DNA of 60,552 nt, taken from positions 1 through 60,552 of IMG/VR virus record IMGVR_UViG_3300029267_000655. One strand, written 5' to 3'. This DNA comes from a virus. The position numbers and the translations under genes were made by a program. Every line of letters starts with the position of its first letter. Position 1 is the stretch's first letter. This document shows, piece after piece, positions 11,145 to 53,973 of this stretch. The notes below the pieces were generated by a model that was not told where the DNA came from, searched no databases, and saw only the letters and a program-made list of their open reading frames with translations.

Positions 11145-12563
11145 CTAGGCTGCGAGTTCGTTAACTACTATTCCGTATTGACCAACTGCCCCATCACAGC
11201 AGATTAGCTGAGTGACACTAGCGTAGGCATAAACAGGTTCGCAGGTCCACGTAAGGTTCGTACCTTGTCTACCGGCTTCTACCCAACCCGAATCACCGCT
11301 AGCACAGACTTCCCGAACCTCTAAGACCATCTCATAAGAAGCTTTACCTACATACTCACAATACAGTCTTAGACTGATCGTAACGTCTTCATCAGTACCC
11401 GGACCACACCCACTAGACGATACGCTACCTTCCCAACGGTTAGTACTAGAGTTGAAGCTAATCGTACTTGTCAAACCGTCGAAGCAGCTACAGTCGGACT
11501 CGTCGCTAAGAGTAAATTCTAACTCGGACGGCAACGGATCAGGACAACAAGAGATAGACGCAGAGAAACTACACTCACCACAACCAGCACAACCAGCAGT
11601 GATAGTGATTATGTCTCCACCGTCTTCTATGACTACGGTGATTCCTGAGTCGTTCGTTAGTCCTCTAACAGAACAGACACCGCCTTCTACTGTTTCTGAA
11701 AGAGGGCCGGTTGAGCCTGTGCCCGTAACCTCTATATCAAAGTCGGTAACACAGTCTCCGGCTGATCCTGTACCCGTACCTGTAGCGGGCCTAAGAGTGA
11801 CCGTAACGGTGATACTACGTCTGCTATCGACGTTGAATAGGTCGATGTCTACCGGCCCCCACACTACAGCACTATCGCCACAGCTAGTGATATCGACGTT
11901 TACCTGACCATCGTAGGTACTAGCTGTAGGCGGGTCTTCGAGCGAGACACTTATACATAACTTCTCGCACACACAGGAACAGTTACCACAGAAGTAGCTA
12001 CATCCGTTATCTCTGTAAGGCAACGTCCTGTAGAGTTGAGGACTTATACTAACGTCGGCTATGTCGCAGCTAGCGTTAGGCTGGCAGCTACTCTCTAGAC
12101 TTACGTCGGTCCAAGTGTAGTAAGGGTACTTACAGCCTACTCCGTTTGGGTCTGCTGGATCACTTTCAGGAGCGTACATCAAGACGCTAAGAGTGTTACC
12201 TGAGTTGAAGCAAGGACACCGTAGGTAAAACCTACATAGTCCGCCAGTACCTTCAGCAATGATCCAAGCATCAACAGCCTGATTAGCAAACGAACCTTCC
12301 CACTTACCGTTATTACAGTTGAAGGTTAGTGAGACGTTTGCTGTAGCTGTTGTGCAAGTTGTTCCTGTCCCTACTGCCGATGTCTTATAGTCAACAGCTA
12401 CACAAAGGACTCTAGGAACACACTTACAACAATCATGACAGCCTACGGTTAAGTGATTACACTTATCACAACAACAGGGGTTCTTAGGATTACTTACCAC
12501 ACCTACGTTCCTGTCCCAATAGTACAATCGTTCTTCAAGCAACAGATTTGATCGACTACCCAC
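11145..12563 (-). CDS. Very Cys-rich tail or receptor-binding protein
   Basis: Up to 472 residues, with more than 40 Cys in clusters such as NPCCCDKC, CHDCCKC, CGNCSCVCEKLC and CAGCGEC. Ser/Thr/Gly-rich beta segments and GTGTG repeats lie between them. This suggests disulfide-stabilised repeated beta domains exposed outside the virion. The start is uncertain: it overlaps the upstream gene by 61 bases, and an internal GTG at about 12507 may be the true start. By position (distal tail operon, before glycosyltransferases) it is probably a tail fibre or adhesin. Confidence 0.65.
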   Translation of the reverse strand: MGSRSNLLLEERLYYWDRNVGVVSNPKNPCCCDKCNHLTVGCHDCCKCVPRVLCVAVDYKTSAVGTGTTCTTATANVSLTFNCNNGKWEGSFANQAVDAWIIAEGTGGLCRFYLRCPCFNSGNTLSVLMYAPESDPADPNGVGCKYPYYTWTDVSLESSCQPNASCDIADVSISPQLYRTLPYRDNGCSYFCGNCSCVCEKLCISVSLEDPPTASTYDGQVNVDITSCGDSAVVWGPVDIDLFNVDSRRSITVTVTLRPATGTGTGSAGDCVTDFDIEVTGTGSTGPLSETVEGGVCSVRGLTNDSGITVVIEDGGDIITITAGCAGCGECSFSASISCCPDPLPSELEFTLSDESDCSCFDGLTSTISFNSSTNRWEGSVSSSGCGPGTDEDVTISLRLYCEYVGKASYEMVLEVREVCASGDSGWVEAGRQGTNLTWTCEPVYAYASVTQLICCDGAVGQYGIVVNELAA

Positions 12564-13222
12564 TCACAGTCACAGTCTGTTCCTGTTCCTACACACTTGT
12601 TGTCTCCTGTTCCCGTAGTTGGGTCAACCGGAGCCATATAGCTAGCCCAACCTTTACGCCCTAACAAGTCAGGATCAGGTTCGTTAAAGAAACAACCGTC
12701 TCTATCATAGATGGTAATCAGACCGTTGACTTCTCCTGGTACTGTAGTTACTCCGCAAGGTCTTTGAGTAACAGCACCAACAGCCCTTAATAGACTGCAA
12801 GTAGAGCTGACGATTGTGAACCTAACCCGATAGAACTGACTACCACCTACCAAAGCCAACCAAGTACCGAACTTGTCCCGTTGAACGGTTATGTATTGTT
12901 GACTGATGTCGGCTGTACTGGTGTTGTAGACGAGTCTAGAAAGTCCCGGCAGCTTGTTGAGTACCTTAACTCCGTTGCTCTCTATTACTCTATAAATGTC
13001 GCAGAGAGCTGAACCCGGAGTAGTACCGGACATAGCAGGAATACCGTCTGCTGTCTGAGGGTATGCTATGTAGGTTTCGGGAGATTGGTGGTCTTCGTTG
13101 ATACCTAGTGGGTCGATGCCGGTTCTGTTAGCTGGATTCTTATTGGAGTTGGTTAGAGTCTGAATCAGTCCTCTTAACAACTCAACTTCAGAATCGGTAA
13201 ACGTCCTAAGAGAGCCAGTCAT
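12503..13222 (-). CDS. Tail structural protein with TGTG linkers, 239 aa
   Basis: Contains SPETYIAYPQTADGIPAM and SGTTPGSALCDIYRV, a beta-rich domain, then TTGTGDNKC and GTGTDCDCEW. It ends in a Cys pair and a GTGT tail. The style matches its downstream Cys-rich neighbour, so the two probably form part of one distal tail structure. No named family recognised. Confidence 0.6.
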   Translation of the reverse strand: MTGSLRTFTDSEVELLRGLIQTLTNSNKNPANRTGIDPLGINEDHQSPETYIAYPQTADGIPAMSGTTPGSALCDIYRVIESNGVKVLNKLPGLSRLVYNTSTADISQQYITVQRDKFGTWLALVGGSQFYRVRFTIVSSTCSLLRAVGAVTQRPCGVTTVPGEVNGLITIYDRDGCFFNEPDPDLLGRKGWASYMAPVDPTTGTGDNKCVGTGTDCDCEWVVDQICCLKNDCTIGTGT

Positions 13223-42419: not shown

Positions 42420-42977
42420 TCAATAGTTCCTTACTTCCCAAAACACGGTATTGAATCCGGGTAGCGTTCCCCACTTAATGCTAAACGTAGAGAACTCCAC
42501 AACATGACCAGGATATTTACTCAATAACTCTTGTAGCCAGTCGTAAGACTTAGGGCACAGACTTCGACGTAACAGCATTACAGCTTCAATCCCGTAGACT
42601 TGCCTACCATCTAGAGCTAGTGCGTCTCTCATAGGTAAACCGACTGCACTAGAGTAGAACAAACCTAAGCCTACAGGAGTCTGCTGAACTTCTCCTTGCA
42701 GCAAGTTACGTTCATGAGGAGCCATAGCACTGATGTAGAACTCATCGAGTCTACCCGCTCTCCTCAGTCTGTTGGCTACTCCTACTGATTCTAGTCTTCC
42801 GATGTTGTAGTATGTATCTCCTCCTCTTTTCCGGTTTCTAAAGTGAACCTTACCAAAGTACTTAGCTGACTTATACTCTTCGTAGTTATCCCAAGTCAGG
42901 CTAGCGTTACCAAACAACCCTTGTTTGTAGTACTTAACGAACTGAGCTTTGTTGTTGATAGGTCCGTTAGGTAACAC
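42420..42977 (-). CDS. Hypothetical protein in nucleotide metabolism cluster, 185 aa
   Basis: GTG start overlapping the thymidylate synthase gene by 11 bases. The product contains NKAQFVKYYKQGLFGNASL, HFRNRKRGGDTYYNIGRLE and VEFSTFSIKWGTLPGFNTVFW. I do not recognise the family. Coupling to the synthase and MazG genes suggests a role in nucleotide or base-modification chemistry. Confidence 0.6.
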   Translation of the reverse strand: MLPNGPINNKAQFVKYYKQGLFGNASLTWDNYEEYKSAKYFGKVHFRNRKRGGDTYYNIGRLESVGVANRLRRAGRLDEFYISAMAPHERNLLQGEVQQTPVGLGLFYSSAVGLPMRDALALDGRQVYGIEAVMLLRRSLCPKSYDWLQELLSKYPGHVVEFSTFSIKWGTLPGFNTVFWEVRNY

Positions 42978-44073
42978 GGGTAGCTTCCCGTCTTAGAATC
43001 CACTCGCTAGCAGCCATCTTCCAAAACGAGTCTTCAATATCGTTAGTAGCATCAATAGCTTTGATAGTGTCTCTTTCTTTGTAGTAGTAGTGGGCACGCA
43101 TCATAGGAGAAGCCACTTTACTAATGAACTCACTTTGACCTTCCCATCTACTAGTATCTCCTCTGTATTGAGGAGCGATAGTAGTGAAATCCGTGCAGAT
43201 CGGTCTATGTACGTCGAAAGGTACTCTAGCTCCATTCTCTGTTAGACTCTTGTTGATACTGATGTAGTTATCAGCGTGTCTAATGTATCCTTCGGGGTTC
43301 CATCTACTAGTGTAGACGTGAAGGTTATTGGTGAATTGATTGTATCTACCGATAGGAACATTCACCATCCTAGCTACGTATTCCTGAAGGAAAGAGAAGT
43401 GAACGACGTTCGCACCTAACATTCCCCAGATTAGATCATTGCTGCGGTTGCAGACAGTCATGTCCAGCTTACCGTCGTTGATTAGAAAGTAAGCATGAGT
43501 GTTACAGGGTACGTCTTTACCACCGTTCATAGCGTTGTGAAGGTCTCTCTTACCTACAGGACCTTCAGGGGTAATCCAGTTCGTAGAGTCCCACATCTGT
43601 AGAACACACCTACGACTATCCGGGTTGTCTTTCAATTCTTCACTAATAGCGAGAATCTGATCAAACCCAAACTGATTCCTCCACCTCTTACCGTAAGCAC
43701 CGTGTAGAGTCTTACCGTCATCGGAGTATCTACCGAAGTCCTTGATGTAATAAAGCAGAGGCTCTAAGTCGTCGCTACCGGACAACATCCAAAGAGTCTC
43801 GAACACATGGAAGAACGGGTTGCAGTCTCTAATAGGATTCAACAGGACTCTATTGGTAGGGTCTGTGAATGTGATATTGACTGGTACCAAGAGTTGGATA
43901 ACGTCTCCATCCCTACTATTACGTCTAGTCATCAACCTGTCTTCGTACGAGTATTCTTCAGTTCGAGTCTCGTACCTGTAAAAACCTAAGACTAAATCTT
44001 TGAATGCACTCTCCACACTAGAGTGCTCGAATCCAAAGCCTTCATTCATCCTACTCAGTCTTTCGTTAACCAC
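42967..44073 (-). CDS. Thymidylate synthase family enzyme (ThyA or dUMP hydroxymethylase)
   Basis: About 368 residues. Preferred start is the GTG at 44073, with GGAG seven bases upstream; a GTG at 44088 is also in frame. VPCNTHAYFLINDGKLDMTV carries the catalytic Cys. VCNRSNDLIWGMLGANVVHFSFL matches the dUMP-binding region with the Asn kept at the position that separates dUMP from dCMP enzymes. YNQFTNNLHVY is the C-terminal binding segment. It uses methylene-tetrahydrofolate to make either dTMP or 5-hydroxymethyl-dUMP. The nearby hypermodification cluster makes the hydroxymethylase role attractive, but sequence alone does not decide. Confidence 0.85.
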   Translation of the reverse strand: MVNERLSRMNEGFGFEHSSVESAFKDLVLGFYRYETRTEEYSYEDRLMTRRNSRDGDVIQLLVPVNITFTDPTNRVLLNPIRDCNPFFHVFETLWMLSGSDDLEPLLYYIKDFGRYSDDGKTLHGAYGKRWRNQFGFDQILAISEELKDNPDSRRCVLQMWDSTNWITPEGPVGKRDLHNAMNGGKDVPCNTHAYFLINDGKLDMTVCNRSNDLIWGMLGANVVHFSFLQEYVARMVNVPIGRYNQFTNNLHVYTSRWNPEGYIRHADNYISINKSLTENGARVPFDVHRPICTDFTTIAPQYRGDTSRWEGQSEFISKVASPMMRAHYYYKERDTIKAIDATNDIEDSFWKMAASEWILRREATRVT

Positions 44074-44087
44074 AGTACGTCTCCACA

Positions 44088-44633
44088 CTAGAAAGGAAGA
44101 TGACTTAGAGGGTAGTTGCTGTAGCGATACATAGAGTTCCCAACCGTAGGAAACACGTAAGACCTACCACCACACAACTCGAACTTGTCGCAGTTAGTAT
44201 CGCTATCGTCTATTAGTATTGTAGTAGGTTTAGCAAGTAGCTCCTTATGAGGTGTTAGCATGAACCGATCAAATTTTTTACCGAACATAGACTTGATCCA
44301 TCGAACCTTACCTGAGTGACTTGTGTGGCATCGACTAGGTGAAGATACGATGTACCACCTATTGCCTACGAACGACTCTACCCGCTCAATCAGTTCCTCG
44401 AAGTAGTTAGTCGGCAGTAACTCGAACCAGAAACTCTCTCCGGCTTCGTGTATCGGTTTCCAAAACTCGTCTAGAGAGCAACCCAACACGTCTGGTAGAT
44501 GCCAGTTCCCAGGATGATCCCGTAACCACACCTCGTCTAGCATCTCTCTGTCTATGTCTATCAGCTTGCAGTACCCTCCAACGAAGTCGGCCAGAACCCC
44601 ATCAAGGTCCAGAAACACGGTGAAATCAGTCAA
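44088..44633 (-). CDS. HAD-family 5'(3')-deoxyribonucleotidase
   Basis: 181 residues from a TTG start with GGAGGA upstream. VFLDLDGVLADF is HAD motif I with the two Asp typical of cytosolic deoxyribonucleotidases (NT5C type). WYIVSSPSRC is motif II, and TTILIDDSDTNCDKF holds the motif III/IV acid pair. It probably dephosphorylates a deoxynucleoside monophosphate, perhaps dTMP or dUMP, to shape the pool for modified bases. It overlaps the synthase region. Confidence 0.82.
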   Translation of the reverse strand: MTDFTVFLDLDGVLADFVGGYCKLIDIDREMLDEVWLRDHPGNWHLPDVLGCSLDEFWKPIHEAGESFWFELLPTNYFEELIERVESFVGNRWYIVSSPSRCHTSHSGKVRWIKSMFGKKFDRFMLTPHKELLAKPTTILIDDSDTNCDKFELCGGRSYVFPTVGNSMYRYSNYPLSHLPF

Positions 44634-44775: not shown

Positions 44776-45177
44776 ATGCCTACCGCAACCCCGAAGAAGA
44801 AGACCGTCAAGAAGTCCTCTGCTAGCAAGACGGCTACCCCGAAGAAGAAGGCAGCAGCAAAGAAGACGACTACGAAGAAGAAGGCAGCAGCAAAGAAGGT
44901 AGCTACAAACAGTAGCGGAAGTAAGTTGGGTAAGCCTTTGATGGCTATTCTCGAAGTACTCAAAAAGGGTAAGTCACTTACCCGCTCTGAAATCTCTGCG
45001 GCTACAGGTATCAAGTCGGGTTTCACCTCATACCTAGGCCAAACAGACCCGGAGAAACGGGAAGAGGGAAGCCTCCTGGCACGTAAGCTTATCAAGATCG
45101 AGAAACACGATAGGGATGGTAAAGACGTGTTGGTTTACTCTATCACAGCTACAGGTAAGAAAGCAATATCAAGCTGA
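44776..45177 (+). CDS. Histone H1-like Lys/Ala-rich protein with C-terminal winged-helix-like domain
   Basis: 133 residues, ATG at 44776 after GAAAGGACC. The first 48 residues are KKK/AAAKK/TTK repeats (MPTATPKKKTVKKSS...) typical of bacterial histone-H1-like DNA-compacting proteins. The rest (LMAILEVLKKGKSLTRSEI, AATGIKSGFTSYLG, then DVLVYSITATGKKAISS) resembles a small winged helix. It is the only plus-strand gene in the leftward half and has its own terminator. It may compact DNA or regulate transcription. Confidence 0.82.
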   Translation: MPTATPKKKTVKKSSASKTATPKKKAAAKKTTTKKKAAAKKVATNSSGSKLGKPLMAILEVLKKGKSLTRSEISAATGIKSGFTSYLGQTDPEKREEGSLLARKLIKIEKHDRDGKDVLVYSITATGKKAISS

Positions 45178-45196: not shown

Positions 45197-45235
45197 AACC
45201 CCACTAGAGCTACTTTGTTCTAGTGGGGTTTTTTC
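45197..45235 (+). terminator. Intrinsic terminator after the histone-like gene
   Basis: AACCCCACTAGA (45197-45208) pairs perfectly with TCTAGTGGGGTT (45219-45230), followed by TTTT. The left end of the aldo/keto reductase gene on the other strand overlaps this hairpin. Confidence 0.9.
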
Positions 45236-46071
45236 GTCAATTCTGCTATGTGGTCTGGATTGTTAGTACCTACGAGTGGTATATCTACCCACCTAGAAGC
45301 TTCCGTAAACGCCTCTGATGCCGTTTTGCGTAGCCTCCCCTGGTCTAGTGTGCTATGCCCTAGTGTCAGCATTCCTACTGATTTGCAGTATGGCAATATA
45401 GACTCACAAGCTCCCAGGTCATTCGAGTTTAACCGGACTTGTACCGACGACAGGTCATAGCCGAGAGACATCAGGCACCGTCTAACCGCTGTTATCTGAC
45501 CTAGAGAGTGGTTGGATACTCCTACGTGAAGAACCGTTCCGTTGTCTAACAGTTCTGCCAGTCCTTCGCAAGTTTGCTCCACCGAAGGTCCGCCTTCGTA
45601 GTTGGGCCAATGTATCTGGTACAAGAAGATAGAAGACACTTTCAGTCTATCTCTAGACCGTAGACCAGCATTGATTACAGCAGACTTGGACATATGGTTT
45701 CTTGCCACCTTTGTAGCAATCTTTGCTTTACATCCGGTTCTGCTGTAGATTTTACCTAGCTCTGTCTCTACTTTTCCATACCCATAACTTTCTGCGGTAT
45801 CAATCAAAACTAGACCTGATTCAGTTACTTGATTGATTACGTCTTCATTGTATTTCCACTTATAAGAACCCCAACCCAGTCTATGTTTTGCTCCACCTAT
45901 TACTTCGTCTCTTATGCGGTGGTTTTTACTGACTTTCTTGTCTACAGTTAGTATAGTCCCTCTATCTTGATTACTAAGTTGCTGATTCCAATTGTCATAG
46001 TCTTCAAGTCTTCCTCTACACTTGTTAGACCACATCAGTCCTCTAAGTCGGTCTCTAGCTATACTGTTCAT
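45220..46071 (-). CDS. Aldo/keto reductase in the hypermodification cluster
   Basis: 283 residues. The complete catalytic tetrad is visible: Asp91 and Tyr96 in LIDTAESYGYGK, Lys121 in IATKV, His154 in YQIHWPN. GVSNHSLGQITAVRRCL and the C-terminal LVGTNNPDHIAEL fit NADPH binding. An N-terminal extension of about 60 residues precedes the barrel. It overlaps the FAD gene by ATGA and is the last gene of the coupled set. It probably reduces an aldehyde or imine intermediate of base modification. I do not recall such a member in described thymidine hypermodification pathways. Confidence 0.85.
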   Translation of the reverse strand: MNSIARDRLRGLMWSNKCRGRLEDYDNWNQQLSNQDRGTILTVDKKVSKNHRIRDEVIGGAKHRLGWGSYKWKYNEDVINQVTESGLVLIDTAESYGYGKVETELGKIYSRTGCKAKIATKVARNHMSKSAVINAGLRSRDRLKVSSIFLYQIHWPNYEGGPSVEQTCEGLAELLDNGTVLHVGVSNHSLGQITAVRRCLMSLGYDLSSVQVRLNSNDLGACESILPYCKSVGMLTLGHSTLDQGRLRKTASEAFTEASRWVDIPLVGTNNPDHIAELTKKPH

Positions 46072-46994
46072 AGAATGATCTCCAACACCTTGTCTGCAAC
46101 AAGCTTAGATAGACCTAGACCTAATCTATGTCCACCGGTGGCAACTACGATTCTGGAACTTACTTTATCGACCAAGAACCTATCTAGGACTGGTCTATAG
46201 CCTGTCTGTATCTTAACTGATTTGGGACTAGCTACTACAGTGTCCATAACCGTTCTTAGGTTTTTCAGTTTGTTGGGGCTTTCGACTTTCTCTGCTGTAT
46301 CTCCTACTTTGAGTCTTCCTTTTGTCCAAACCCTAACCGTGTGTTTTACATAGGGTTTTATCATTACTGATACTGGAAGTTCGGTAGTTGGCTTACCTTT
46401 ACAAGTTATACCTCTACCCAACAACTTACCAACACCTATCGGACTCATTCTACATACTTCGGTAAGTACAGAATCGGTTCTATACCCCGTCGCTAGTAAT
46501 ACAGACTTTGACTTAACAACAAACTCCTCTCCATTATCTATATTAGTGTAGAAAGTCTCTACGTAGTTCTGATGTTCTTCTATGTTCGACACTCTTCCTA
46601 CCCGCCTGATGTCGTTTACTTGGTCGGTAAGTGTCTCTGGTTCCGGTAAGTAGATTACTTTGCTTCTAGGTCTTATAGGTCTGTCTTGGTACATATTCCA
46701 AAAGTACTCAAGAACTTCATAGCCACCCACCGTCTTTAGCCAATCTATTGATTCACCTAACTTACTTCTGTCTAGGTTTTGAGGCCAGTACTTCGAGAAA
46801 ATGTCAGAAGAGTAAGCTCCAGGATCGCAAACAGCCGAAGCATTTCTACTTCCTGATTGTTTGTCTCCATCATCTATTATACAGCAGCTAATTCCTTTAG
46901 ACCTAGCTACATTAGCAGTAGCACTTCCCCAATAACCCGATCCCACTATCGTTAGGTCTATTGTCTTGTTTCCTACGGATTTTCTCGTCACCAT
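46068..46994 (-). CDS. FAD-dependent oxidoreductase (DAO/glycine oxidase-like)
   Basis: 308 residues. DLTIVGSGYWGSATANVA is the dinucleotide-binding GxGxxG at residues 18-23. SKSVLLATGYRTDSV is the second FAD segment, and VVATGGHRLGLGLS the C-terminal FAD motif. The size is short for ThiO-like enzymes but complete at both ends. In phage thymidine-modification pathways described by the Weigele group, FAD enzymes act on glycyl-thymidine. This one is placed to do similar chemistry on DNA. It overlaps neighbours on both sides. Confidence 0.82.
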   Translation of the reverse strand: MVTRKSVGNKTIDLTIVGSGYWGSATANVARSKGISCCIIDDGDKQSGSRNASAVCDPGAYSSDIFSKYWPQNLDRSKLGESIDWLKTVGGYEVLEYFWNMYQDRPIRPRSKVIYLPEPETLTDQVNDIRRVGRVSNIEEHQNYVETFYTNIDNGEEFVVKSKSVLLATGYRTDSVLTEVCRMSPIGVGKLLGRGITCKGKPTTELPVSVMIKPYVKHTVRVWTKGRLKVGDTAEKVESPNKLKNLRTVMDTVVASPKSVKIQTGYRPVLDRFLVDKVSSRIVVATGGHRLGLGLSKLVADKVLEIIL

Positions 46995-47779
46995 AGCTTT
47001 CCTCTCTTTCCTGCTCTGTATAGTTGTTGAGCTAGCCTAACACGACCGAATCTAGCAAGACTCTTTCTCAAAGCTTCTACGTCTTCTCCTACTTCGTAGT
47101 GACCGTTGAGATGACTCTTCCACTTACATAGAATCGTCTCAGCCTCTTGCGGTCCTAACGGTCTATCGAACGTAGGTGGAGCTAGGTAGCCGTCTAAACT
47201 CTCTAGAATATGCTCCGTAGCCCATCTATTTCGCTCTCTAACGTCCTCTGTTGCTTCGGATGGGTTTCGATACCTATCCTGAGCTAGAGACGCTCCTACC
47301 TTCGGAGAATCGAATAGGAACACGTCTTCTACCGGAAAGACTACCGGAACACCTAGAACTCTCTCTAGCATGTCGGCTACCTTGAATGAGATCCAAGGTC
47401 CGAACCCTACCCAACGCTGAACGTGTAGCATCACCTCAGTAGATTGAATAGGTTTCTTAACGTCTATCGGTTTGAATAAACCGTCTAAACCTACATCACT
47501 CAGGTAGTTAACAGACTTGGTAGCGTTATCTCCCCTGAAGTGTCTACGCTCAGGACACCTAGGGTACTTCTTAGACTTAGCCGCAGTCATCATAGCGTTC
47601 CAGTAGTCTTTCTTATACGTTATCCAACTGGCAGTACCGCTATGATAAAAACACCAGTAAGCTAGTAACCACTTCCGTAGTTGTACCTTACTCATGTTTG
47701 AGTTAATCAACACCGTATAGACTGGGTCTAAGTCTTCGTTGTCTAGGAGAGACTTACCAAACTCAATCAGTTCTAGCAT
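46988..47779 (-). CDS. Alpha-glutamyl/putrescinyl thymine pyrophosphorylase clade 2-like protein
   Basis: 263 residues. LRKWLLAYWCFYHSGTASWI, the ERRHFRGDNATKSVNYL segment and WVGFGPWISFKVADMLERVL match my memory of the aGPT-PPlase clade 2 family. That helical fold was predicted by Iyer and colleagues to replace the (pyro)phosphate on 5-hydroxymethyl-uracil in DNA with an amine or amino acid. The first genes of such pathways (kinase, second transferase-like protein) are immediately upstream, which strongly supports the call. Confidence 0.78.
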   Translation of the reverse strand: MLELIEFGKSLLDNEDLDPVYTVLINSNMSKVQLRKWLLAYWCFYHSGTASWITYKKDYWNAMMTAAKSKKYPRCPERRHFRGDNATKSVNYLSDVGLDGLFKPIDVKKPIQSTEVMLHVQRWVGFGPWISFKVADMLERVLGVPVVFPVEDVFLFDSPKVGASLAQDRYRNPSEATEDVRERNRWATEHILESLDGYLAPPTFDRPLGPQEAETILCKWKSHLNGHYEVGEDVEALRKSLARFGRVRLAQQLYRAGKRGKLW

Positions 47780-49163
47780 CTTGGACAGGCACCTTTAACT
47801 CGACAAGACGTAATGCTCGACCTTCACCAGCAATAACGTCACCACACCTAGGTTGTCCTGGGTCATCTTCGTTTTCGCTTGCACAATACAAACAACCCGA
47901 AGGTGGGCATTCGTCTACTTCTCGGAATAGTTCATCTGGATTGTCCCTAGTAAATACCGGAACACGCTGCCCGTGGCACTGGTCTGCCGTAGTGTATTCC
48001 CTACCGATACTGACTCCTGTCTTGCTAGTTATGTTTCCTTGTTCGTCTCTTTCGTAACGATACTCGTAGCAAGTGGCGTAGGTTAGTCCGTACCGTTTGG
48101 CGTATTTACTATACATCTCATGGGCTTTTAGTCTGTACTCTTCTTCTACACACCTTTGTCCGCCCATGTTGTCGGTAAACAACTCCTTAAACTTCTCTCC
48201 TCTTTCTCCAAACCTCTTAACCATCCTCTCTTCCATACTGTTAGCCCAAGAGTAACCCGCTTCGACAAACTTAACGATGACGTGGTCTGCTCCTGCCTCA
48301 GCTAGCCTCTTGAATAGCTTAATGATGTCAGCATGAGAGGTTACACCCGGAATAATTGGATTGACTTGAATAGAGACATACACACCTTTGTTCTTGATCC
48401 TTGTGATGTCTTTTAGATGTCCTTTCAAGCTAAGTGCTCCGGGGGAAAGCCTACGAAAGTCCTCTGGAACTGATGTGTTGATAGACTTCTGAGCGTAGCT
48501 ATAGGGATTCTGGGTCATAAGGTCGATAGCCCATTTAGGGTATCTCAACCGACTAAGAAAGAAGATAGGCAAACCAACCTTCACAAACTCTTCAGCAGCG
48601 TATTGGGTGTTATGATAGATACTCTCCAAAGGTAGAAACGGATCAGTAAATGATGAGAAGTAACCCGCTGCTCCACGTCTGACTTTACGTAGCTGTTTCC
48701 TGATCTGTTCTCCGTAGTCCATAGGGACAGTGATAAGTCCGGTGCCACGATAGCCTCTGAACCCGGAGTTAACGTAACAGAAAGCACAACCAACAACACA
48801 CCAACCACCGTAAGGTTCAGTTAGTATAGCTTCAGTGAAACACGGTCTAGGTCTAACATTGTCTGGTTCGTGTAGACCTTTGTACCAACCTTGTAGCTGC
48901 TTTGCTTTATCTATCCGAGTATGTGGGTATGGTTCTAAATAGGCTCTGACTTCCTTCTTGTCTTCGTCTTTAGCGTTTCTGACCATACCCACCCGAACGT
49001 CTCTGACCTTAACTTTACGTCCGAAAACTTCATCATAGACTGTTTTGATTTCAGAAAGATTCTCCCTAGGTTCTGGACGCATGAAATAGTTGTAGACGGT
49101 ATTGGCTGTGTGTTCGTCTTCACCTACAGATTGAGTTGTGATCCAGCTTTGTTCTTGGTCCAT
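47763..49163 (-). CDS. Radical SAM enzyme, probable modified-thymidine remodelling
   Basis: 466 residues. WCVVGCAFCYVNSG holds the CX3CX2C cluster (Cys122, Cys126, Cys129) for the 4Fe-4S/SAM centre, as in spore photoproduct lyase-type enzymes that act on thymine. The barrel continues with GAAGYFSSFTDPFLPLE and VSIQVNPIIPGVTSHADI. A C-terminal Cys cluster (CPPSGCLYCAS, then RCGD) may bind zinc or a second cluster. It starts on the stop of the kinase gene (TAATG). Radical SAM enzymes in related phage clusters isomerise or rearrange amino-acid adducts of thymidine. Confidence 0.85.
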   Translation of the reverse strand: MDQEQSWITTQSVGEDEHTANTVYNYFMRPEPRENLSEIKTVYDEVFGRKVKVRDVRVGMVRNAKDEDKKEVRAYLEPYPHTRIDKAKQLQGWYKGLHEPDNVRPRPCFTEAILTEPYGGWCVVGCAFCYVNSGFRGYRGTGLITVPMDYGEQIRKQLRKVRRGAAGYFSSFTDPFLPLESIYHNTQYAAEEFVKVGLPIFFLSRLRYPKWAIDLMTQNPYSYAQKSINTSVPEDFRRLSPGALSLKGHLKDITRIKNKGVYVSIQVNPIIPGVTSHADIIKLFKRLAEAGADHVIVKFVEAGYSWANSMEERMVKRFGERGEKFKELFTDNMGGQRCVEEEYRLKAHEMYSKYAKRYGLTYATCYEYRYERDEQGNITSKTGVSIGREYTTADQCHGQRVPVFTRDNPDELFREVDECPPSGCLYCASENEDDPGQPRCGDVIAGEGRALRLVELKVPVQDARTD

Positions 49164-49720
49164 TAGGTAACCTCACTCAGAATAGAACTAGAAATTTTAA
49201 CAACCTGCTTGAAACTTAAAACCCGACAATAGACACCATTCTGTCTTAATCGGGTTCTGGCTCGTTCTATAAGCTTGACCCTTTTTATTGTGTTGTGTGT
49301 ATTTAGGGGTTTGTCGTTACCTGCGTCTAGTCTTCTTTGTTTTACCTGTTCAATACATTTATCTGTATCGGTATTAAGAAATAGAACCCTAACATCGTGA
49401 CCTATCTCTTTTAGTTCTGTGGTCCACTTGACGTCTTGACTAAGAAGTAAACCCTCACACAATACCAGGTCTACATTGTTGGGGCTTAGTGACTGAACCC
49501 TCTGTATAAGGTCAAACACTGATCTAGCTGAACCTACATTGTCACATCCTCCGCAAGTTGACTCATAGTGACCTAAAATACAGACGGACCCACTATAGTA
49601 TCCAATCGGTTTTCTACGTCCTTCTTCAATTATAGGTACTAAGTCTAGACCCCCTATTATCTCTCTCATAGCTGTAGTCTTTCCACTACCGCTAGTTCCT
49701 CTTATCTGAAGTATCAACAA
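49163..49720 (-). CDS. 5-hydroxymethyl-dU DNA kinase-like P-loop protein
   Basis: 185 residues from a TTG start with AAGGAG upstream. LQIRGTSGSGKTTAM (P-loop, residues 8-16), then VCILGHYESTCGGCDNVGSA and VDLVLCEGLLLS are the marks of the phage 5-hmdU DNA kinase family, which phosphorylates the hydroxymethyl group on polymerised DNA. In many phages this domain is fused to the helical HMUDK domain. Here the two are separate adjacent genes with a seven-base overlap. Confidence 0.85.
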   Translation of the reverse strand: MLILQIRGTSGSGKTTAMREIIGGLDLVPIIEEGRRKPIGYYSGSVCILGHYESTCGGCDNVGSARSVFDLIQRVQSLSPNNVDLVLCEGLLLSQDVKWTTELKEIGHDVRVLFLNTDTDKCIEQVKQRRLDAGNDKPLNTHNTIKRVKLIERARTRLRQNGVYCRVLSFKQVVKISSSILSEVT

Positions 49721-50577
49721 CCTACAAACTCCTTGTACTTAGACTTCGGTCTTCTACCATCAAAGAGTGTCCTTTCATACTTATCGAACTCACACAAACA
49801 GTTCTGGTAGTCTATTGCTTCGAGTCGTTTTGAAATACTTCTAGGTATTAGAGACTTGGTGTATTCTAGTACGTCGGTACCAAACCAATGATTAAACTCT
49901 GTTTGGCTCATAGGTGATTTTATGTCTCTACCTAACAACCTATTCATTCCTCTTCGACTACCCGGACCAATAGCAGCCCACCTCAACCTATCCTTAAACA
50001 CCACCGAAGTGGCCCACCTAAGATCAGCAGCTACTTGACCCGACATAAAAGAACCCATATTCCAATAATTCGATAGCGACTCAACCAATCTCTCTAATCT
50101 GTTATGAATCACTAATGGGTTATCTACAAACTGCTGGCAGTTTACTTTGATTACCATTTCAGACTTATCTGGCCAACCTTTAGATGCTCTTATAATATAG
50201 GCTCCGTTGAACACCGGAGCACTACTTTGTTCGGTTTTGTACTTCTCGATTCTAGCTAGGATTCTTTTAGGCTCCCACCGTGTAGGGAACCCGATAGCAT
50301 CTAGAGTAGATGGTTGATTAAAGTGACGAGCCAATACACAAGCCAACACTATGTTCTTGTGATCTTTGTAGGGTTCATACCAATTCTTGAGAAGCCACTG
50401 ACTAACTCTATCGTCCATCCTACGGACATTACAGAATCGGTACGTATTAAGAATCTCGTCATCGGTCCAAGGTCTAGGCTCACCGGCTTCCTTCTTCAGT
50501 CGGATACTCTCCCTCTCAGTGATCCAATAGACTAACCTCTCAAACGGGTCTAGCTTCTTAACGTCTTCTATGTTCAT
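49714..50577 (-). CDS. HMUDK helical/aGPT-PPlase clade 1-like protein
   Basis: 287 residues. FERLVYWITERESIRLKKEA, EILNTYRFCNVRRMDDRVSQ, then GSFMSGQVAADLRWA, IGPGSRRGMNRLLG and NCLCEFDKYERTLF match the helical domain found beside or fused to 5-hmdU DNA kinases. The RFCNVRR and GPGSRRG stretches are its most conserved parts. It probably acts directly on kinase product or positions DNA. ATG overlaps the polymerase stop (ATGA), so polymerase and modification genes are translated together. Confidence 0.83.
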   Translation of the reverse strand: MNIEDVKKLDPFERLVYWITERESIRLKKEAGEPRPWTDDEILNTYRFCNVRRMDDRVSQWLLKNWYEPYKDHKNIVLACVLARHFNQPSTLDAIGFPTRWEPKRILARIEKYKTEQSSAPVFNGAYIIRASKGWPDKSEMVIKVNCQQFVDNPLVIHNRLERLVESLSNYWNMGSFMSGQVAADLRWATSVVFKDRLRWAAIGPGSRRGMNRLLGRDIKSPMSQTEFNHWFGTDVLEYTKSLIPRSISKRLEAIDYQNCLCEFDKYERTLFDGRRPKSKYKEFVGC

Positions 50578-52616
50578 AGACCTAATCCTTCTGCCCAGTT
50601 GTGTTCGTGGTACTCACAGCTTACCGGAGTAGGAATACCGAAGTCATCTCCACCTAGTTCCATGATCTTCATCACTTCTTTCATGATCGGTAGATTAGTC
50701 TTCCAAGGTTCAGTACCGCTACCCTTAGGAAAGTCAAACACAAGCTCATCGTGAACCTGCATCACCATATAGTAGCCTCTTGATCCTTTCTTACGGTTAA
50801 GGTCGTCTAACATCTCTTGAACTCTAACCATAGCCTTACACATCCACCACATAGCCGAACCTTGAACGTGGTAGTTAAGAGGAATCGTAGGCTTAACTCC
50901 ACCCCACCTAGTACGAGTACAGTAAAGAGGGTAGCCACGTTCTGGGTCTACTGTGCGGTCTGGAATCGTCTCTACGTAACCGTACCGATTGGCGAAGTCT
51001 ACCCACTTCTGATTTAGCTTAGCTTTCTCTGTAAGACGATCAGCGATGATCTTCTGTGCTCCGGGTACATGGTAGGCTCTATCTGCTGTCCCTGTACCGT
51101 CTTCTTTAGCTACTGCCCCGTATTGGTCAGCAAAGTTACCATTCTTAGTCCACTGGTACCAAGTGCTAGCATACTCCTTCTTACAGTCTGCTCCGTGCTT
51201 CTTAAACTTGTCGGGGTGAAGAATAGAGAAGATCAGAATGTGGTAACTGCCGTAATAGGGTGGTTCGTCCGGCTTCTCGAATATCTCAATCATCGCAGGT
51301 TCACCGCTCTCGTAGGCAGGTAACCTAAGCTCTATGTTCTTGGCATCACAACTCCACCACTCTCTACCTAGTGCTGGACCGAAGCCTTGACGTAAGTTGA
51401 AACCCTCCTTCTTGCTGATGTTCTGTTCGTTAGGGTTGCTGCTAGACCAACGAGTAGTGGCTGTACCGGTAGGGTTAAGACTAGGGTGAAGAACTACCCA
51501 AGGTCCGTTAGGTCTTCTGAGAGGAAGCCAGAACCGCTCATAACTCTCCATGTAGCTAAGTGCTGTGTCTCGCTTGCGTTTGTTTCCTAGAGCACGAACA
51601 AAGTCTAGCTGTGGACTAGGATCATCCAACGTAAACTCGTAGACGCTCAACACGTCTTTGTTGAGTAGGGGTAACCCGGTCTTAGGAGACTTAGCAACTA
51701 CCGGAAGACCTATGTGCTCGAAGCAAGCTGACTGAAGTGACTTGTTACTACCGCTCTTAGGCATAGAGAGTTCAGCACCATACATGCCCGCGATAGTGCA
51801 GCAGATGCGTTCAGCTTCTTCGCTCTGATCTCTATACTCATTAGTGAGTGCTCTAAACCTACTACGGTTAGCTGTGATACCTTTAGACTCCATACCGTAG
51901 ACGACTCTAGGAATCTTACACCTCTCTTCGTAGATGTGGTCTAATCCCTTCTCCTTAATCAACTCCATGTGCCGTTCATATATCTTGACCGTACACTGGC
52001 TGTCCATATTAGCGTAGTCACTAAGAACATCCCACCAAGGATGATCACTAGGGTAGTCCTCTTTTTGAGCGACAAGCCTAGGAAGCCAAGTGTCGTTTTT
52101 CCATACTTTGTCCTTAGCACTAGGTAATTGAGGAAGACCTTTCTTGGCTATTAACCAATCAGGTCTGTTGTGCTTAGCCCAATCCCTAGCCTGCTTACAT
52201 GCTGTCTCTAAGTCGTTGTCATACGGTTTGACATTAACACCTAGATAGACTAGAGCCAGTGTTGTAAGGTCTTTGGGTTGGTTAGACGCAAGCAAGTGAG
52301 CCGATATAAGAGTGTCCCTAACCCTAGACCAATCAAGGTTCGGTACAAAGTCCCCATCAAACAAGTAGTCTAGAGCAGCTATATCAAACTTAGCATTCTG
52401 AAACACTAACAGTTCAGCAGACTCTAACTTGTCCCAAACGTCTTCTAAGTCTGACTCAGCTACTTCAGGCTTACGAGTGTAGGGGTCTACGTACCACTCC
52501 CAGTAGTCTTGAGACTTATCTATCACACTTGTGCTAGTCGTTACTGCGAATGCCCTACAACCATGCTTTAAGTCGATTCCTGTCGTCTCTGTATCTACTG
52601 CAAGAATGCTAGTCAT
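50574..52616 (-). CDS. Family A DNA polymerase with 3'-5' exonuclease
   Basis: About 680 residues. The ATG at 52616 has GGAGGAAGG upstream, and the protein begins MTSILAVDTETTG, the Exo I motif; an in-frame start ten codons earlier is less likely. Exo II lies in LVFQNAKFDIAALDYL and Exo III in SDYANMDSQCTV. Motif A is WSCDAKNIELRLPAY (Ala-Lys instead of the common Tyr-Ser), motif B region is TKNGNFADQYGA, and motif C is MVMQVHDELVFDF. It is the replicative polymerase. Motif A and B variants may relate to use of modified dNTPs, which is speculation. Confidence 0.9.
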   Translation of the reverse strand: MTSILAVDTETTGIDLKHGCRAFAVTTSTSVIDKSQDYWEWYVDPYTRKPEVAESDLEDVWDKLESAELLVFQNAKFDIAALDYLFDGDFVPNLDWSRVRDTLISAHLLASNQPKDLTTLALVYLGVNVKPYDNDLETACKQARDWAKHNRPDWLIAKKGLPQLPSAKDKVWKNDTWLPRLVAQKEDYPSDHPWWDVLSDYANMDSQCTVKIYERHMELIKEKGLDHIYEERCKIPRVVYGMESKGITANRSRFRALTNEYRDQSEEAERICCTIAGMYGAELSMPKSGSNKSLQSACFEHIGLPVVAKSPKTGLPLLNKDVLSVYEFTLDDPSPQLDFVRALGNKRKRDTALSYMESYERFWLPLRRPNGPWVVLHPSLNPTGTATTRWSSSNPNEQNISKKEGFNLRQGFGPALGREWWSCDAKNIELRLPAYESGEPAMIEIFEKPDEPPYYGSYHILIFSILHPDKFKKHGADCKKEYASTWYQWTKNGNFADQYGAVAKEDGTGTADRAYHVPGAQKIIADRLTEKAKLNQKWVDFANRYGYVETIPDRTVDPERGYPLYCTRTRWGGVKPTIPLNYHVQGSAMWWMCKAMVRVQEMLDDLNRKKGSRGYYMVMQVHDELVFDFPKGSGTEPWKTNLPIMKEVMKIMELGGDDFGIPTPVSCEYHEHNWAEGLGL

Positions 52617-53211
52617 AGCCTGTATGTGCCTTCCTCCACTCGTCAAACGAATTGTAGAGCGGTTTGTACTCTTTCATTGTACCGTCTACTTCAACTACTA
52701 ACCGCCAATCTCCCCATTCTGCTGTCGGTCCTTCGTAGGGTTGTTTGGCTCTTAGTCCGGCTGTGTGTAGTACAGAGTCTCCGTGCTCTATCACTGCCCG
52801 ATACTTAGCGTGAGTGATCTTGCCTTCTTCTCTTAGTGCTTCGAGTCTACCGCTGTGAACGTAGTTATGACACAAGTGACAGAGCGGAACAGTCTCTACG
52901 TAGTAGTGTCTACCAAGCAGATAATCTGTCTCGTAGACTTCGTGTCCTTCTAGCCACTGTCTGTACCTAGCTTTGAGTTTATGCACACCGCAAGCTAGAC
53001 AGTGATAGTAGTTGGATTTGTAGGACTCTTTCCTAGTCTTATCCCACCAACTCTGTCCTAACACAACTCGTGGAGCTAGACCGTGCATAGGCTTCGGAAT
53101 GTTAGGACACAGAAGTAGCTCAGGCTTTCTCTTAACTAGCGTCTCTTTTCTTCGGCTACGTTTCTGTTCCTTAATCAACTTCCTTGTCACTGCACTCCGT
53201 TTCTTAGCCAT
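52609..53211 (-). CDS. HNH-type endonuclease-like protein
   Basis: About 200 residues; ATG at 53211 preferred over the TTG at 53214, with AAAGG upstream. A very basic N-terminus precedes LLCPNIP and YYHCLACGVHK. GHEVYETDYLLGR and VPLCHLCHNYVHSG then form the beta-beta-metal HNH core with surrounding Cys pairs for structural zinc. Its place just before the polymerase gene could mean a free-standing homing endonuclease or a replication nuclease. Confidence 0.75.
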   Translation of the reverse strand: MAKKRSAVTRKLIKEQKRSRRKETLVKRKPELLLCPNIPKPMHGLAPRVVLGQSWWDKTRKESYKSNYYHCLACGVHKLKARYRQWLEGHEVYETDYLLGRHYYVETVPLCHLCHNYVHSGRLEALREEGKITHAKYRAVIEHGDSVLHTAGLRAKQPYEGPTAEWGDWRLVVEVDGTMKEYKPLYNSFDEWRKAHTGYD

Positions 53212-53688: not shown

Positions 53689-53734
53689 CATTGCTCTGAC
53701 CGCCATCACAACCTCTCTCAGCAGTAGTAGTAGT

Positions 53735-53806
53735 GCTCCGGGTAGGACTCGAACCTACAACCAAGACATTATGAGTATCCTGCTCTAACCTTTGAGCTAC
53801 CGGAGC
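53735..53806 (-). tRNA. tRNA with anticodon CAT (Met, or Ile2 if lysidine-modified)
   Basis: 72 bases. Acceptor GCTCCGG pairs with CCGGAGC, D stem GCTC/GAGC, anticodon loop CTCATAA, T arm GTAGG-TTCGAGT-CCTAC. The first base pair is G-C, so it is not an initiator. No CCA is encoded. Confidence 0.9.
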
Positions 53807-53813
53807 TAAGTAG

Positions 53814-53887
53814 TACTCCCATCAGGACTCGAACCTGAAACCTACGGTTTAGAAGACCGTTGCTCTATCCTATTGAGCTATGGGAGC
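53814..53887 (-). tRNA. tRNA-Arg, anticodon TCT
   Basis: 74 bases. Acceptor GCTCCCA pairs with TGGGAGT (one G-T pair), anticodon stem ACGGT/ACCGT with loop CTTCTAA, T arm CAGG-TTCGAGT-CCTG region intact. It would read AGA and AGG codons, which are frequent in this phage's coding strands. Confidence 0.9.
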
Positions 53888-53891
53888 CTAG

Positions 53892-53973
53892 TGGTCGTGG
53901 AGGGACTCGAACCCTCATGCCCGAAGGCACTAGAACCTAAATCTAGCGTGTCTGCCAATTTCACCACACGACC
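53892..53973 (-). tRNA. tRNA-Leu, anticodon TAG
   Basis: 82 bases with the long variable arm of class II tRNAs (TGCCTTCGGGCA hairpin). Acceptor GGTCGTG pairs with CACGACC; anticodon stem CTAGA/TCTAG with loop TTTAGGT. It would read CTA and other CTN codons. CTA is very common in this phage (CTAG-rich sequence). Confidence 0.9.

Follow-up and report, generated by a model that had tools for sequence, protein, structure and literature searches.

A predicted aldo/keto reductase step in the thymidine hypermodification pathway of a metagenomic virus

The pathways most closely related to the one considered here use an amino acid:DNA transferase (ADDT), which installs an amino acid on 5-hmdU. In Pseudomonas phage M6, a radical SAM enzyme reportedly isomerizes the N-linked glycine to the C-alpha-linked form and a PLP enzyme is said to remove CO2 to give 5-NedU, in work attributed to Lee et al. 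2021. The DNA of M6 carries 5-(2-aminoethyl)deoxyuridine (PMC6449724). In phage PaMx11, the FAD enzyme gp47 (NGTO) is an N-alpha-GlyT lyase according to the titles of structures 8z79 and 8z2o. The roles proposed below for ADDT, radical SAM, PLP and NGTO-type proteins are, by analogy, those of the named families in M6 and PaMx11.

The window, by which we mean the whole stretch of DNA analyzed, corresponds to one IMG/VR virus record, 60,552 bases long and of metagenomic origin. A run of modification genes on the minus strand starts with the 5-hmdU DNA kinase helical domain protein (HMUDK_hel; 49714..50577; PF18723, E 6e-48) and a P-loop kinase (49163..49720), presumed to be the catalytic part of the 5-hmdU DNA kinase from its position and family, which are as for M6 gp054 (its match to AAA_33 is weak). 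Next are a radical SAM enzyme of the M6 gp053 type, by family a glycine isomerase (47763..49163; phrog_9252, E 6e-191), the ADDT (46988..47779; PF18724, E 8e-16), an FAD enzyme of the DAO fold (46068..46994; PF01266 and a structure model; motif GGHRLG) and, last in the run, an aldo/keto reductase (AKR; 45220..46071). By ORF coordinates, all gene junctions from 50577 to 46068 overlap or abut, and a DNA polymerase-like ORF (50574-52646, minus strand) abuts the HMUDK_hel gene without a gap. The ADDT is 37-42% identical to proteins of M6, PaMx11 and a Rhizobium phage. The radical SAM protein has 59% identity to M6 gp053 with the CxxxCxxC motif intact (C122, C126 and C129), and it also matches phrog_13321 at 2e-17.

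Two further minus-strand genes are separated from the AKR gene by one convergent plus-strand ORF: a 5'-deoxynucleotidase-like gene (NT5C; 44088..44633; PF06941, E 2e-6), the product of which probably removes a competing nucleotide, and beyond it a thymidylate-synthase-like (TS-like) gene for a presumed dUMP hydroxymethylase (42967..44088; PF00303, E 2e-19; phrog_5131). The proteins expected of an ADDT-type pathway occur together in the window, namely the 5-hmdU kinase pair, the ADDT and the TS-like protein (PF18723, PF18724 and PF00303), and the virus is predicted to modify thymines of its own DNA. As for features of the M6 (5-NedU) branch, the radical SAM enzyme is present and the gp052-family PLP enzyme is missing. 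The convergent ORF (44776-45177) encodes a Lys/Ala/Pro-rich, histone-H1-like N-terminus and an apparent winged-helix C-terminus, and has no Pfam match. Three tRNA genes (Met, Arg-TCT and Leu-TAG) lie upstream of the cluster at 53733-53973 on the minus strand.

The first-pass annotation had proposed an AKR gene at 45220-46071, an Asp-Tyr-Lys-His tetrad in its product and an ATGA overlap with the FAD gene, and the present analysis agrees on each point. The gene has an ATG start and encodes 283 residues that match PF00248 (Aldo_ket_red) with 98.5 bits (E 5e-28; cutoff 24). The predicted model is an (alpha/beta)8 barrel with eight strands and a mean pLDDT of 83; residues 1-32 are below 50, and the N-terminal module as a whole is a helical, low-confidence part of the model. 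Residues Asp91, Tyr96, Lys121 and His154 align with columns that are invariant in 75 of 75 cellular AKRs, a sample made up of the best matches of a motif-based scan and therefore not random. The start of the AKR gene (46071) and the stop of the FAD gene (46068) overlap within ATGA. In the fold comparison, which took in residues 51-283, the best match is 3n6q (Z 28.7, rmsd 1.9 over 226 residues), and many AKRs match at Z 25-29. Matches to NCBIfam all fall far below the cutoff; a methylglyoxal reductase is among the best of them.

AKR genes are also found in two other ADDT clusters (L041 and L072, described below), and several features set these three pathway AKRs apart from the 75 cellular ones. 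The nicotinamide-stacking Tyr, present in 75 of 75 cellular sequences, is His239 in all three; as read from the alignment, this is a substitution within the AKR family, with fold and tetrad kept. The segment from beta7 to beta8 has 26 residues in each of the three versus a cellular minimum of 41, the C-terminal tail 14-17 versus a minimum of 27, and 67-88 residues precede Gly68 versus a cellular median of 18. Arg124, Arg213 and the helical N-terminus are conserved in the three. In AKRs as a rule, the beta7-beta8 and C-terminal loops lie over the cofactor and give the substrate pocket its shape. Because these loops are deleted, the active site of the pathway AKRs should be open, and such a site would suit a base in DNA.

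For a wider view of gene content, viral contigs were scanned with radical SAM, ADDT, AKR and FAD queries, and the loci were dereplicated to 107 ADDT groups. Radical SAM without FAD was found in 57 of the 107 and FAD without radical SAM in 38; both were present in three groups and neither in nine. By profile search, 48 groups have radical SAM with PLP, and nine have radical SAM alone, several of these on short contigs. Among the 38 with FAD and no radical SAM, 12 have an acetyltransferase and one has a PLP match; the only ADDT group with FAD, a PLP match and no radical SAM is L120, on the same contig as L308. The radical SAM and FAD genes are thus almost mutually exclusive (Fisher 7e-17), and AKR goes with the radical SAM plus FAD pair (Fisher 5e-6), both values being descriptive, as the ADDT groups are not phylogenetically independent. 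The three groups with the pair are the window, L041 (contig 3300022173_000099) and L072 (contig 3300046455_000317), and they are the only ones of the 107 with an AKR. No PLP homologue was found in the whole records of these three, and the same search finds PLP in the L010 record. Contigs may be fragments, and that of L041 ends shortly past the radical SAM gene. An earlier tally, based on single-sequence queries and covering 98 groups, agreed with this.

These counts bear on another reading of the AKR, in which the FAD enzyme would act as a plain lyase, freeing glyoxylate from N-alpha-GlyT, and the AKR would do no more than reduce this glyoxylate or another small aldehyde to spare the cell, away from DNA. 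AKRs do reduce small aldehydes, as the methylglyoxal reductase among the NCBIfam matches below cutoff recalls, and the FAD enzyme is closest in fold to the lyase NGTO. However, the 38 FAD clusters without radical SAM would free glyoxylate too and have no AKR, so the clean-up role is disfavored; it also leaves the conserved radical SAM and the loss of PLP unexplained. We consider it quite unlikely.

The gene order of relatives points to a dedicated step in DNA modification. The nearest relatives by radical SAM (L009, L010, L013, L014 and L016) have the order helical protein, kinase, radical SAM, ADDT, PLP, and in the window the FAD and AKR genes occupy the slot where these relatives carry the M6-type PLP gene. 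(In L016, an Amidoligase_2 protein is encoded after the PLP gene at 11669-12643, a possible further tailoring step.) In the radical SAM tree, AKR clusters occupy three distinct places, in every case next to PLP clusters: the window inside the PLP group around L010, L041 beside L110 and L072 beside L066. Well-supported branches force three changes, so that PLP would have given way to FAD plus AKR on about three occasions, unless the pair moved as one block. The AKRs of the three clusters form one clade, with support of 100/98 and 98/89 in two trees and with long branches.

The gene could instead have been picked up by chance from host metabolism, as a moron with no part in DNA modification. AKRs are common in bacteria (found in 13 of 14 control genomes), and phage AKRs occur in other contexts, such as the sugar-nucleotide cluster of L001; that sequence was set aside as evidence, as were those of L158 and L159, which group with cellular AKRs in the tree. 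Against chance acquisition, the same partners recur in three separate places, the viral AKR clade is apart from the sampled cellular AKRs, and the gene overlaps that of the FAD enzyme; we regard this origin as very improbable. The nearest relatives lack the AKR gene, yet its combination with radical SAM and FAD is found in two other clusters, so the gene is not the lone insertion that the first-pass annotation had named as the outcome contrary to its proposal. The AKR search of annotated phages gave only weak, partial matches, and from those databases by themselves the gene would have looked like an isolated one. Three clusters with radical SAM, FAD and AKR are few, though independently placed, and this number counts against the explanation developed below.

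The FAD enzyme was compared with NGTO in the same way. The top fold match of its model is 8z79, the PaMx11 protein (Z 29.5, rmsd 2.4 over 272 residues), followed by glycine oxidases. Its sequence has IKPYVKH and GGHRLG where the lyase-type alignment has WAPYKQ and GGAKNG. Sequence and model suggest a relative of the NGTO family, for which the motifs do not imply the lyase role. The FAD enzyme of L072 keeps the lyase-type Lys motif and might still cleave N-alpha-GlyT. In the FAD tree, the partners of the pathway AKRs fall into two clades, the window and L041 with Microbacterium phage Kozie and L072 with L093; because the AKRs form one clade and the FAD enzymes two, the AKR appears to follow the radical SAM plus FAD combination rather than one FAD gene.

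The idea that a GGHR-type FAD enzyme marks the AKR route was dropped, as this enzyme is also present in Kozie, L269 and L270, where neither AKR nor radical SAM was found. A single-sequence FAD search of viral contigs gave no match. The Kozie locus (L007:1-3273), at the genome end, has in a row a Tet/JBP-like oxygenase (weak match), ADDT, FAD enzyme and P-loop kinase3, a hypermodification set that may begin from thymine oxidation in DNA.

Taken together, the genes suggest the following route. The kinase pair would activate 5-hmdU in DNA, the ADDT would attach glycine through its nitrogen to give 5-N-alpha-GlyT, and the radical SAM isomerase would shift the link to C-alpha, giving 5-C-alpha-GlyT. 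If radical SAM supplies a C-alpha amino acid in a cluster with FAD, the FAD substrate would be a primary alpha-amino acid. Enzymes of the glycine oxidase fold convert such amino acids to the imino acid and then the keto acid, which an AKR can reduce. The FAD enzyme, replacing decarboxylation of the M6 PLP type, would convert the amino acid side chain by oxidative deamination into the alpha-keto acid 5-(2-carboxy-2-oxoethyl)-dU, and the AKR with NAD(P)H would reduce the ketone to the alpha-hydroxy acid 5-(2-carboxy-2-hydroxyethyl)-dU (nucleoside C12H16N2O8, 316.091 Da). Gene content and order, the swap and its recurrence, folds and motifs are observed here, whereas the substrate of the FAD enzyme and both substrate and product of the AKR are inferred from this gene logic.

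Two variants of the route lead to other products. The FAD product could lose CO2, spontaneously or through FAD-derived H2O2, to give 5-(2-oxoethyl)-dU, which the AKR would reduce to 5-(2-hydroxyethyl)-dU (272.101 Da). This follows the same gene logic, and AKRs prefer aldehydes, but no decarboxylase is present (PLP being absent) and a keto acid decarboxylated by H2O2 would end up as an acid rather than an aldehyde; the variant seems unlikely. Alternatively, the final base could keep its nitrogen, with the AKR reducing the imine through which FAD amine oxidation passes or otherwise yielding a reduced amine. Imine reduction was among the proposals of the first-pass annotation. It is decidedly improbable, since AKRs as a rule reduce carbonyls and reducing the imine back would cancel the FAD oxidation unless stereochemistry or linkage changed.

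The idea that the AKR is a dedicated step of thymidine hypermodification has strong support in the recurrence, the gene swap and the separate clade; for the substrate, an alpha-keto acid fits the gene logic better than the aldehyde or imine first suggested. We think it quite probable that the AKR is a dedicated step acting after radical SAM and FAD. The exact hydroxy-acid route, with its specific product, is put forward tentatively, at a little under an even chance, and the explanation as a whole, dedicated step plus hydroxy-acid route, is evenly balanced. Against it stand the small number of clusters, the lyase-type Lys motif of the L072 FAD enzyme, the GGHR-type FAD enzymes of loci with neither AKR nor radical SAM found, and the L248 and L251-type arrangements described below. 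Its product would be a base not described so far; because the swap to FAD plus AKR recurs independently, such a base would be made by the viruses of the window, L041 and L072. A literature search found no paper linking DNA hypermodification with aldo-keto reductases; the main pathway papers were beyond its reach and might mention one.

Viral relatives of the pathway AKRs extend beyond ADDT clusters. A DNA pattern for DTAxxYGYGxVE retrieved a second viral group, L240-L251, with the same N-terminal module (DxLxGSMWxxxxR), and the 12 viral AKRs in the tree form one clade (100/98) apart from the sampled cellular AKRs. In the loci whose gene maps were read, AKRs of the second group adjoin radical SAM-family genes (phrog_13321). 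The operon at L251:3450-7621, the same in L244, L241 and L245, encodes a radical SAM-family protein, a methyltransferase-like protein with no significant match, the AKR and a second radical SAM protein with no match in annotated phages. Because no FAD was found in these clusters of AKR and radical SAM, the AKR chemistry need not depend on FAD.

Another arrangement is seen at L248:213-6688 (IMGVR_UViG_3300037264_002341), with an NGTO-family FAD enzyme, AKR, radical SAM-family protein, M6-type PLP enzyme and second radical SAM protein in a row, the last carrying intein remnants; the row is possibly another type of hypermodification. On this 24.5-kb fragment no ADDT or TS was found, and the HMUDK search had no positive control, hence no absence is claimed for it. 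A rule that AKR never occurs with PLP was discarded, as it is true for ADDT clusters only and L248 breaks it outside them. The common partner of the viral AKR family is radical SAM, and within ADDT clusters radical SAM plus FAD.

The prediction thus adds one enzyme class and one more branch to thymidine hypermodification of the ADDT type. That this glycine-derived branch of radical SAM, FAD and AKR ends in an alpha-hydroxy-acid base, with an open-site viral AKR family acting on DNA bases, is a tentative proposal to which we give slightly less than even weight. If true, a carbonyl reductase joins the enzyme classes that tailor DNA bases, a specific undescribed thymidine with an acid and a hydroxyl in place of the amine is predicted, and phages exchange the last step of such pathways as one block. 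The hydroxy-acid base would also be expected to alter which restriction enzymes are blocked.

With the viral phrog_8735 group (L240-L251 and L248), the window AKR has the N-terminal module, clade and radical SAM-family neighbors in common; that group, unlike the window AKR, has normal loop lengths and Tyr at 239, with no ADDT found. Cellular AKRs (AKR11/AKR14/Kv-beta-like, e.g. 1pz1 and 3n6q) have the same barrel fold and catalytic tetrad, whereas the window AKR has lost the beta7-beta8 and C-terminal loops, has His in place of Tyr at 239 and carries a helical N-terminal module. In PaMx11 (L004), as in the window, the ADDT comes before an FAD enzyme with the same fold; PaMx11 differs in its acetyltransferase, its lack of radical SAM and AKR, and its FAD motif, GGAKNG versus GGHRLG. 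M6 (L002) shares with the window the TS-like protein, the kinase and helical protein, the ADDT and the 59% identical radical SAM enzyme; M6 lacks FAD and AKR and carries a PALP-fold PLP enzyme instead, whereas the window carries the FAD enzyme and the AKR and has no PLP enzyme.
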